Of a stretch of 64,000 bases of DNA, positions 1,729 to 55,138 are shown one piece after another. The notes below the pieces were generated by a model that was not told the origin of the DNA, ran no database searches, and worked only from the letters and a program-made list of their open reading frames with translations. Within the stretch, counting starts at the first letter, position 1. Each line of letters starts with the position of its first letter. The position numbers and the translations under genes are program-made. The stretch is from Candidatus Tectomicrobia bacterium (GTDB taxonomy: Bacteria > UBA8248), in the NCBI GenBank assembly GCA_016192135.1, contig JACPUR010000013.1, positions 1 through 64,000 of the forward strand, in the 5' to 3' direction.

Positions 1729-1859
1729 GGAACGTCCTCCGAAGAGGCGGGAGAGCATCCCCTGAATTAAATGTAATGATTCGGCGCGACGGCGGCCAGC
1801 GGCACCACGAGATACCCGGCCATCCGTCGGGGCGGCCCCCCGTGGCCGCCCACTCCATA

Positions 1860-1890
1860 GGCAGGGGCAGGCACGGGGCCTGCCCCTGCC
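1860..1890. repeat. Perfect 13-bp inverted repeat, GGGGCAGGC type
   Basis: Arms GGCAGGGGCAGGC (1860-1872) and GCCTGCCCCTGCC (1878-1890) flank a 5-nt loop. It lies between two divergent genes. Related short palindromes occur at about 4264, 4853, 17641 and 58756, which suggests a dispersed repeat family. Confidence 0.75.
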
Positions 1891-41491: not shown

Positions 41492-41755
41492 ATGCCCTAC
41501 GAGATCGAGATGTACACCACCAATCCCTGCCCCTTCTGCCTGGCGGCGAAGAACCTCCTCCAGAAGCGGGGCCTGAAATGGAAGGAGCACCTCGTTTTCG
41601 GCGGCACCCCCGAGTGGGCCGCCATGATGAAGCGGACGAACGGCAAGACCGTCCCCCAGGTTATCATCAACGGCGAGGTGATCGGCGGCTTCCCCGAACT
41701 GTCCGCGCTGGACAAGGAGGACCGCCTGAAGGAGCTGGCGAACGGGAGAGAGTAA
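41492..41755 (+). CDS. Glutaredoxin, Grx3-like (87 aa)
   Basis: A thioredoxin-fold thiol-disulphide oxidoreductase using glutathione or a comparable thiol. The active site is CPFC (residues 13-16, TTNPCPFCLAAKNLLQK), with TVPQVIINGEVIGGFPEL near residue 52 as the cis-proline and GSH-binding region. GGAGGG precedes the ATG. It ends 16 nt before the selenoprotein candidate, so the pair is an operon and the glutaredoxin probably supplies reducing power to the peroxidase-like protein. Confidence 0.9.
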   Translation: MPYEIEMYTTNPCPFCLAAKNLLQKRGLKWKEHLVFGGTPEWAAMMKRTNGKTVPQVIINGEVIGGFPELSALDKEDRLKELANGRE

Positions 41756-41771
41756 AAAGGGGAGTTCACGC

Positions 41772-42350
41772 ATGGTCTGGATCCGTACGATCCCGGAAGA
41801 CGAAGCGACGGGGATGCTCAAGCGGTATTATGAGGGAGCGAGGAAGAGCCGGGGCTTCCTCTCCGAGCGGATTACGGTTTTCAGCATCAAGGAAAACAAC
41901 CTTCGGGCCAACCAGACGTTGACTTCCACCCTGATGGAAGGCGAATCGGGGCTTTCCAGGCCCGAGAAGGAGATGATTGCCGTCCGGGTGTCCGCCTTGA
42001 ACCACTGTCATTACTGAACGGTGTCGCACGGGCAGGCGCTCGTTCAGCTGACCGCGGATGTGAACCTTCCCGTGGCCATTGAAAACGGGGACTTTGAAGG
42101 GCTCGGCCGCAGAATGCAGGCCGTTCTGCCATACGTGGAGAAACTCACTCTGCGCCCGGGCGAGATGGCTGAGGAAGACCTCGGGCCTCTGCGCGAAGCG
42201 GGGCTGTCCGACGAGGACATTCTCGATATGGTGATGATCGCCAGCTATTACGGCTACATCAACCGCGTCGTGGACGCCCTCGGCGTCCGCTTGTCCGCGG
42301 AGCAGGAGAAGCGGCAGGAGGAAATTGCCCTTTCGCGCAGCCGGGGGTGA
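41772..42350 (+). CDS. AhpD/carboxymuconolactone decarboxylase-like selenoprotein candidate with in-frame TGA (192 aa)
   Basis: Two adjacent in-frame segments join across TGA at 42015-42017. Residues 1-81 end NHCHY and the downstream part begins TVSHGQAL. Reading TGA as selenocysteine gives C79-H-Y-U82-T-V-S-H86, the exact CxxCxxxH redox motif of AhpD-like proteins with the second cysteine replaced. Both halves belong to one AhpD-type helical domain (RPEKEMIAVRVSALN before, LSDEDILDMVMIASYYGYINRVVDAL after). A stem pairing CTGAACG (42014-42020) with CGTTCAG (42041-42047) spans the TGA, as expected for a bacterial SECIS, although the exact fold is not resolved. GGAG precedes the ATG. It could instead be a nonsense-mutated gene, but the position makes that unlikely. 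YqeC at 50077 shows that this organism handles selenium. Confidence 0.82.
42014..42047 (+). promoter_or_regulatory. Candidate SECIS stem-loop at the TGA codon
   Basis: CTGAACG (42014-42020) and CGTTCAG (42041-42047) form a perfect 7-bp stem containing the TGA. Further pairs (GTG with CGC; GC with GC around ACGG) can extend it with single-base bulges. The TGA-to-loop distance of about 10 nt is shorter than usual for bacterial SECIS elements, so the active fold may be different. Confidence 0.5.
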
Positions 42351-42546: not shown

Positions 42547-43983
42547 ATGCCGCTGATGAGCCCGGGGCAGTACAAGGAGAGCCTGCGCGACGGCCGGACG
42601 GTCTACTACCGGGGGGAGCGGGTGGAGGACGTGGCCGCCCATCCCGTCCTCGGGGTGGCCGTCGAGCACGCCTCGATCGACTACCGCATGGCCGAGGATC
42701 CGGCCGGACGGCCCCTCGCCGTGGTGGATGGGCCCGACGGCCCCGCCTCCCGCTACTACCACATCCCCCGCTCGGCGGATGACCTCCTGAAGCGCAGCGC
42801 CCTCATCGAGCGCGCCACCGCCCTGGGCGGCACCCTGGTGGTGCTCATCAAGGAGATCGGCACCGACGCCCTCTTCGCCCTCCACCTCCTGGCCGGCCAT
42901 ATGGACCGCACGAAGGGCACCTCCTATCTTCCCCGCGTCCAGAAGTTCTTTGAGCATTGCCGCTCCAAAGATCTCGCCGTGGCGGTGGCCCAGACCGACG
43001 TGAAGGGCGACCGGGGCAAGGGTCCGGGGGAGCAGGCCCACCCGGATTACTACGTGCGCGTCGTCTCCGAGGATAAGGAGGGCATCACCCTCCGGGGCGC
43101 TAAGGTCCACACCTCGGTCTCGGTGAACGCCCACGAGATCATCGTCCTCCCCACCCGGAACATGGGCCAGGGCGAGGAGGCCTATGCCGTCGCCTGCGCC
43201 GTCCCGGCCAACGCCCCGGGCCTCACCATGATCGCCAGCCCCTACGGGAGCCGGAAGTCCAACGCCTTCGAGGCCCCCATCAGCGCCCGCCACAAGATGA
43301 TCGAGGCCCTCACCGTCTTCGAGGACGTGAAGGTGCCCTGGGAGCGCGTGTTCCTGAAGGGGGAAGCGGACATGGCCGGGCCCCTGGCCAAGACCTTCGT
43401 CGAGTTCCACCGCTTCACGGCGGTGAGCTACAAGCTCCCCCTGGTGGACCTCTTCGTCGGGGCCTCCCGCCTCATGGCCGAGTACAACGGCATCCTCCGG
43501 GCCAACCACGTGCGCGACAAGCTCGCCCGCCTCATCAGCTACGCCCAGATATGCCGGGGCATGGCCCGCGAGGCCGCCCGCGAGTGCAAGGTGGTGGACG
43601 GCATCGCCGTCCCCAGCGCCGAGCTCATCAACATCGCCAAACTCCACTTCGCCGAGAACTACCACCAGACGCTGGCCTGGGTCATCGACATCGCCGGGGG
43701 CCTCCTCGTCACCGGCCCCTCCGAGGAAGACCTGAACCACCCCCGCCTGGGCGAGATGGTTTCGAAGTACCTCGGCGGGGCGGGGGGCGTCCCGGCCGAG
43801 GACCGCCTCCGGCTCATCAACCTCATCGCCGAGATCACCACCACCGACTTCGCCGGCTACCAGGCCGTCCTCGCCATCCACGCCGAGGGCTCCATCGAGG
43901 CCGAGAAGCTCACCATCTTCGCCAGCCACGACGCCCGGGCCTCGGTCGCCTACGCCAAGCGGCTGGCGGGGATTGGGGATTGA
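42547..43983 (+). CDS. HpaB-family flavin-dependent monooxygenase, oxygenase component (478 aa)
   Basis: An acyl-CoA-dehydrogenase-fold enzyme of the 4-hydroxyphenylacetate 3-hydroxylase family. The HpaB N-terminal domain starts SPGQYKESLRDGRTVYYRGERVEDV. It has the flavin and substrate blocks YLPRVQKFFEHCRSKDLAVAVAQTDVKGDR near residue 150, SVNAHEIIVLPTRNM near 195 and VPWERVF near 265. The iron-sulphur cysteines of the related 4-hydroxybutyryl-CoA dehydratase are absent, so a two-component hydroxylase fits better. No flavin reductase is beside it. GGAGG precedes the ATG. It heads the gene run ending near 46.9 kb. Confidence 0.88.
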   Translation: MPLMSPGQYKESLRDGRTVYYRGERVEDVAAHPVLGVAVEHASIDYRMAEDPAGRPLAVVDGPDGPASRYYHIPRSADDLLKRSALIERATALGGTLVVLIKEIGTDALFALHLLAGHMDRTKGTSYLPRVQKFFEHCRSKDLAVAVAQTDVKGDRGKGPGEQAHPDYYVRVVSEDKEGITLRGAKVHTSVSVNAHEIIVLPTRNMGQGEEAYAVACAVPANAPGLTMIASPYGSRKSNAFEAPISARHKMIEALTVFEDVKVPWERVFLKGEADMAGPLAKTFVEFHRFTAVSYKLPLVDLFVGASRLMAEYNGILRANHVRDKLARLISYAQICRGMAREAARECKVVDGIAVPSAELINIAKLHFAENYHQTLAWVIDIAGGLLVTGPSEEDLNHPRLGEMVSKYLGGAGGVPAEDRLRLINLIAEITTTDFAGYQAVLAIHAEGSIEAEKLTIFASHDARASVAYAKRLAGIGD

Positions 43984-54106: not shown

Positions 54107-55138
54107 TTATTTATCTTTTAAGTGGTCCCACCCCCCCGCCCGAAGAGGAAGGAGGTCCTCCCCCCGCTTGAGCCGCAGGCCCTGCCCGGCGGGGACAATC
54201 TCACCGATCGGCGTGAGGGGGAGGGCTCCCGCCTCCCGGACCGCCTTTTGGAGGGCGGGCACGGCCTCGACGGGGGCGGTCAGGAGGAGCTGGTAGTCCT
54301 CCCCCCCGTAGAGCGCCCATTCCTCGGGGCGCAGTCGCGCGGCGGCGGCCAGCTCCAGGGCGGCGGGGGAGATGGGGAGCTCCTGCTCCCAGACGACCGC
54401 CCCCACCCCGCTGGCCTCGCAGAGGTGCCCCAGGTCCCCCGCCAGGCCGTCGCTCAGGTCCATCATGGCGGTGGCCTTCTTGAGGGCGGCGACGGCCTTC
54501 CCCTCTTCCACCCGGGCGGTGGGGCGGAGCTGGGCGTAGATGAGGGCCGTGCGGGCCTCGTCGCGCACCTTCGCCTCGGGGTGGCCCAGCAGGTGAAGGC
54601 CCGCCGCCGCGTCGCCGAGAAAACCCGTCACCAGGATCTGATCCCCGAGGCGGGCGCCGGAGCGGAGGAGGAGCCGGTCGCGCTCCACCGTCCCAACCAT
54701 GAAGATGTCGATGAAGAAGGGCCCCTCGGTCCGGCTGACGTTGCCGCCGAGGACGGCGACTCCCCACCGCCCCGCCCGGGCGTTGATCCCCTCGTACACC
54801 TCGTCGAGGAAGGCGACGGGCGTGTCGGCGCGCACCCCGAGCGAGATGAGGGCGTAGCGGGGCGTCCCTCCCATCGCGGCCACGTCGCTCGCGTTCACCG
54901 CGAGGGCCTTCTGCCCCACCGAGATGCCCGACGCCCCCTCCGGGAAGTGCACCCCCTGGACCTGCACGTCGCAGGTCATCACCCAGCACCGGCCCTCCCC
55001 CGCCTCCACCACGGCGGCGTCGTCGCCGTTGCCCACGACGATGTCCGGCCCCGCCGAGGCGGCGAGCTTGCGGCGCAGCCGGCCGATCAGGGCGAACTCC
55101 CCCATCCCGCCCGCCGCGCCCTCCGGAGGCCCCGTCAC
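54107..55138 (-). CDS. thiL: Thiamine-monophosphate kinase (343 aa)
   Basis: It phosphorylates thiamine monophosphate to the active cofactor, thiamine pyrophosphate. Family blocks: GEFALIGRLRRKLA near residue 12, VVGNGDDAAVVEAG near 35 (metal-binding Asp pair), DVQVQGVHFPEG near 60, MMDLSDGLAGDLGHLCEASGVGA near 225 and GGEDYQLLLTAP near 275. The GTG at 55138 overlaps the ThiE stop by 4 nt and has AGGAGG upstream, so it is preferred; ATG at 55105 would give a 332-aa protein of more typical length. Confidence 0.93.
   Translation of the reverse strand: MTGPPEGAAGGMGEFALIGRLRRKLAASAGPDIVVGNGDDAAVVEAGEGRCWVMTCDVQVQGVHFPEGASGISVGQKALAVNASDVAAMGGTPRYALISLGVRADTPVAFLDEVYEGINARAGRWGVAVLGGNVSRTEGPFFIDIFMVGTVERDRLLLRSGARLGDQILVTGFLGDAAAGLHLLGHPEAKVRDEARTALIYAQLRPTARVEEGKAVAALKKATAMMDLSDGLAGDLGHLCEASGVGAVVWEQELPISPAALELAAAARLRPEEWALYGGEDYQLLLTAPVEAVPALQKAVREAGALPLTPIGEIVPAGQGLRLKRGEDLLPLRAGGWDHLKDK

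Follow-up and report, generated by a model that had tools for sequence, protein, structure and literature searches.

A highly probable AhpD-like selenoprotein of the TIGR01926 subfamily in a Candidatus Tectomicrobia bacterium and probable Sec-type relatives in its phylum

An AhpD-like gene (TIGR01926, CMD fold; positions 41772-42350, plus strand, as for all features given between 41492 and 43983) with TGA as codon 82 was analysed in a window of 64,000 nucleotides (Candidatus Tectomicrobia bacterium, assembly GCA_016192135.1, contig JACPUR010000013.1, positions 1 to 64,000). By comparison with its relatives, this UGA is shown to be translated and to occupy the place of the second Cys in the CxxC motif of AhpD. 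With high confidence, the gene is assigned to the selenoproteins of the TIGR01926 subfamily; this explanation as a whole comprises Sec insertion through SelB and a SECIS element, peroxidase-type chemistry and a recent insertion of the gene at its present place. The original prediction of a selenoprotein of the AhpD/CMD superfamily is thereby upheld, on the strength of the TGA in 5/5 orthologous genes, the Cys homologues aligned to it, and the tRNA-Sec, SelA and SelB encoded in the genome.

Frame, coordinates and residue numbers predicted for a TGA at the second position of CxxCxxxH were confirmed by re-reading 41772-42350. The gene starts with ATG at 41772, preceded at a distance of 7 nt by GGGGAG (41759-41764), on inspection a plausible ribosome-binding site. 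It runs through the active-site stretch NHC79-HY-TGA82-TVS-H86 (C79 codon, 42006-42008; Sec codon, U82, 42015-42017) and ends at its real stop, the final TGA (42348-42350). Read-through of TGA82 gives a protein of 192 residues; two short ORFs result when the gene is handled by a mechanical ORF call.

The family assignment was made by profile search with the read-through protein, which matched PF02627 with 50.7 bits and the peroxidase-related model TIGR01926 with 132.5 bits (cut-off 81.8) over residues 3-174 and hence across the TGA, in agreement with the earlier observation of family-like sequence on either side of it. When the AhpD/CMD signature (E-x11-CxxC-x3-H, with Sec allowed in place of Cys) was tested, it was found in full as E67-x11-C79-x2-U82-x3-H86. 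An alignment of 25 rows shows no variation at E67 and H86 and almost none at columns 79 and 82. The AlphaFold model (pLDDT 92.5) has the all-helical AhpD fold; its best PDB matches are 3c1l and 6k40 (TM 0.84-0.90), and the debrominase Bmp8 (6ohi) is among its fold neighbours. Cys is aligned to the TGA in the solved homologues 6k40, 3c1l and 2pfx, as the original prediction had anticipated for column 82.

Orthologues were searched for in 18 genomes of the phylum, the window's own genome being designated G000. The four closest homologues, all from other species (G013, G015, G016 and G017; 56-60% identity), have TGA at the same codon. Ratios of dN/dS (Nei-Gojobori, ten orthologue pairs, dS saturated for one) were 0.09-0.27 on the upstream side of the TGA and 0.13-0.32 on the downstream side. 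Judged from these sequences, both sides of the TGA are under purifying selection in the orthologues, and the TGA is kept far beyond chance. A real stop, produced by a sequencing error or by decay of a CxxC-type AhpD gene into a pseudogene, would give the same picture if this one gene were viewed in isolation; we regard this reading as already refuted by the conserved TGA and the low dN/dS in independent genomes, and with TGA at the same codon position in five other CMD genes of the genome, its probability is negligible. Reassignment of TGA in this organism to, for example, Trp or Cys would likewise account for its use as a sense codon. It is just as improbable: this very gene is terminated by TGA, and the ends of the orthologues lie only a few codons away; tRNA-Sec, SelA and SelB are encoded in the genome; and in CMD proteins, the in-frame TGAs coincide with the motif Cys. 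A broken copy of the orthologue was also seen in a further genome of the phylum (G014:C162:4084-4438, L057); it consists of fragments corresponding to residues 2-57 and 126-189, contains one TAA and lacks the active-site part, and is either a pseudogene or an assembly fault.

The Sec machinery, on whose presence the original prediction depended, was sought in the genome (3.92 Mb, 41 contigs, 96.8% complete). A tRNA-Sec with UCA anticodon (74.8 bits, gathering threshold 47) was found, together with SelA (540 bits) and SelB (389 bits), both above cut-off and neighbours on contig C15, where their matches lie about 900 nt apart. Of the four components named for this search, only SelD was not found in the assembly by profile search. 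An AIRS-domain protein encoded in the window beside a ThiE-like gene (54341-55048) stayed under the SelD cut-off with 83.5 bits and was read as ThiL instead. A scan of the genome's contigs gave just one distant relative. Across the phylum, tRNA-Sec is present in 16/18 genomes and SelD in 14/18, including both other genomes of the same genus. The 9 kb around selD of one of these (G001) gave only short scattered matches in G000. Since the flanks of selD are missing as well, its absence is probably due to an assembly gap, with which the matches are consistent. SelD itself has one in-frame TGA in all 14 genomes that carry it (L073-L082).

A candidate bacterial SECIS hairpin (42028-42043; stem ACGGGC/GCUCGU, loop AGGC) follows the UGA at a spacing of 16 nt, with a 6-bp stem and G at the second loop position. 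Its folding energy is -8.6 kcal/mol with flanks, the bare stem (-7.0) falling just short of the threshold. The layout was taken from a 2026 review (PMC13188914), which gives a stem of 4-16 bp, a loop of 3-9 nt with G in the first two positions, a spacing of 16-37 nt and MFE <= -7.5. All five orthologues retain the stem core CGGGC/GCUCG, and hairpins at a spacing of 16-17 occur in several other TIGR01926-type Sec genes. Synonymous randomisation gave p = 0.13, and the base rate in the window genes is a passing hairpin 3' of 13% of codons; the hairpin fits the bacterial layout in stem length, loop and spacing and, taken alone, is weak evidence. The 7-bp perfect stem noted originally across the TGA (CUGAACG, 42014-42020, paired with CGUUCAG, 42041-42047) does exist, but a role as signal was not borne out: it is present in this gene only and not conserved in the four orthologues. 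The region proposed for folding (42010-42070) did not exceed dinucleotide shuffles in stability (z -0.5). The stem across the TGA is probably incidental, and the downstream hairpin is the better candidate for the signal element.

Upstream of the AhpD-like gene, at a distance of 16 nt, lies a glutaredoxin gene (NPCPFC; 41492-41755), and 196 nt downstream the gene of an HpaB-like flavin-dependent monooxygenase (42547-43983). In G001, glutaredoxin and HpaB stand side by side with 85-89% DNA identity and without the AhpD-like gene. The segment 41721-42469 has no DNA match in that genome, its first 35 nt being the diverged end of the glutaredoxin gene. GC3 is 0.79-0.80 in the AhpD-like gene, as against 0.89-0.99 in its neighbours. 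From this lower GC3 and from the unmatched segment between flanks shared with G001, the AhpD-like gene is probably a recent acquisition that entered between the two. A palindromic repeat of about 75 bp (GTAGGGGC...GCCCCTAC), dispersed through the genome in many copies and folding into a long hairpin, was also observed (window 1822-1887; L101:246-325; L119, L120, L122 and L125).

In the mechanism that we propose, SelB with Sec-tRNA would read the SECIS hairpin just downstream of the UGA and insert selenocysteine. The residues of the M. tuberculosis AhpD mechanism are Glu118, Cys130, His132, Cys133 and His137 (PMC3141380). U82 corresponds to Cys133 and, by analogy, is taken as the attacking residue, C79 being taken as the resolving one. 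Activated by the E67/H86 proton relay, U82 would attack a (hydro)peroxide or a similar oxidised substrate, and the resulting selenenic acid would be resolved by C79 to a selenenylsulfide. Reduction of the latter might be accomplished by a general cellular dithiol (thioredoxin, glutaredoxin/glutathione or dihydrolipoamide); M. tuberculosis AhpD is lipoamide-linked.

The partner and the substrate might each be otherwise. The original prediction had put forward the neighbouring glutaredoxin as reductant, and as a dedicated one in an operon arrangement it would be compatible with the 16-nt gap on the same strand and with plausible chemistry. This is unlikely, however, as glutaredoxin adjoins HpaB without the AhpD-like gene not only in G001: most genomes of the phylum contain this pair, so that glutaredoxin is a phylum-wide neighbour of HpaB rather than of the AhpD-like gene. 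The orthologues of genus g6, moreover, sit behind an SDR gene with no relative of the window glutaredoxin nearby. From this pairing and from the other neighbours of the orthologues, we infer that glutaredoxin is not a dedicated partner. As for the substrate, the fold shared with the debrominase Bmp8 means that it could differ from a peroxide. The protein would then be a selenol-dependent reductant for an aromatic or halogenated catabolite or for by-products of HpaB, which would suit the adjoining HpaB gene and the location of homologues beside genes of aromatic/steroid oxygenases (HsaBC in Tsukamurella, a ring dioxygenase in Paracoccus). Association with any one pathway is not conserved, though, and the nearest relatives that have been described are of the peroxidase type (6k40 by name; PA0269 in PMC3141380), so this proposal is rather improbable, if less so than that of a dedicated glutaredoxin. 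Peroxidase activity is kept as the presumed function of the AhpD-like selenoprotein.

The use of Sec in such proteins extends beyond the window gene. In six CMD genes of G000, TGA takes the place of the second motif Cys (CPFU, CDFU, CAYU, CHYU, CNYU and CQPU), five of them being additional to the window gene (L090, L092, L094, L096 and L098, on contigs C21, C4, C4, C32 and C40, respectively). Two forms with CxxC, CHFC and CVPC, were observed besides. A codon-bias scan of the window for further genes that read through TGA gave three weak candidates; the scan is insensitive, having missed the AhpD-like gene itself at its threshold. In eleven related genomes, from genera g2 and g6, a TIGR01926-type protein has TGA at each of the two motif positions (UYGU in 11/11, in the context GGUYGUxxNHG; L070:7211-7735 in G007; L038, L048, L049, L050, L051 and L052; copies in L107-L111). 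The one UYGU protein tested scored 86.5 bits against TIGR01926, and dN/dS of 0.06-0.42 on both sides of the TGAs in the nine pairs compared indicates purifying selection. For the UYGU genes and for one CxxU group, no clear hairpin was detected by the simple test used above. It seems probable that many CxxC-type AhpD/CMD proteins have become selenoproteins in this small phylum, a TIGR01926-type subgroup carrying Sec at both positions. If this is true, UYGU is an AhpD-type active site with a diselenide redox pair, and one downstream SECIS perhaps serves two UGAs separated by 9 nt. The occurrence of Sec in the majority of CxxC-type AhpD/CMD proteins encountered in G000 offers material for testing the preference for Sec at the attacking position, and the double-Sec form in the relatives for testing whether a diselenide active site works. 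Such lineage-wide use of Sec is of more interest than the single window gene. A double-Sec (UxxU) AhpD was not found in a non-exhaustive search of the literature, the published descriptions consulted giving AhpD-type families only as CxxU.

The window gene adds a well-supported case to a selenoprotein family known since 2005. CxxU AhpD-like selenoproteins were described in the Sargasso Sea set of that year (27 sequences; PMC1088965) and in the GOS set of 2008 (299 sequences in AhpD-like 1, COG2128; PMC2398784), and Table 1 of the 2026 review lists TIGR01926 as CxxU with one Sec (PMC13188914). The arrangement, originally thought to be undescribed, therefore has precedents in the same subfamily, with the same Sec position and a single Sec; relative to these published accounts, only the species and the glutaredoxin/HpaB neighbourhood are new. 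Family NF041238 (AhpD_rel_CFYUT, alkylhydroperoxidase-related (seleno)protein; 357 positions) shares the Sec position and has a related C-terminal domain, but the window protein, with 60.1 bits against a cut-off of 175, is not a member. The TIGR01926-like proteins of Cys type 6k40 (D. radiodurans AhpD), 3c1l (Mlr4105), 2pfx, 2oyo and 2prr share fold and signature at 25-38% identity (structure alignment) and have Cys where the window protein has Sec. M. tuberculosis AhpD and P. aeruginosa PA0269 (PMC3141380) are distant in sequence and have Cys at both positions, yet they possess, like the window protein, a CxxC-type catalytic pair with a Glu/His proton relay.
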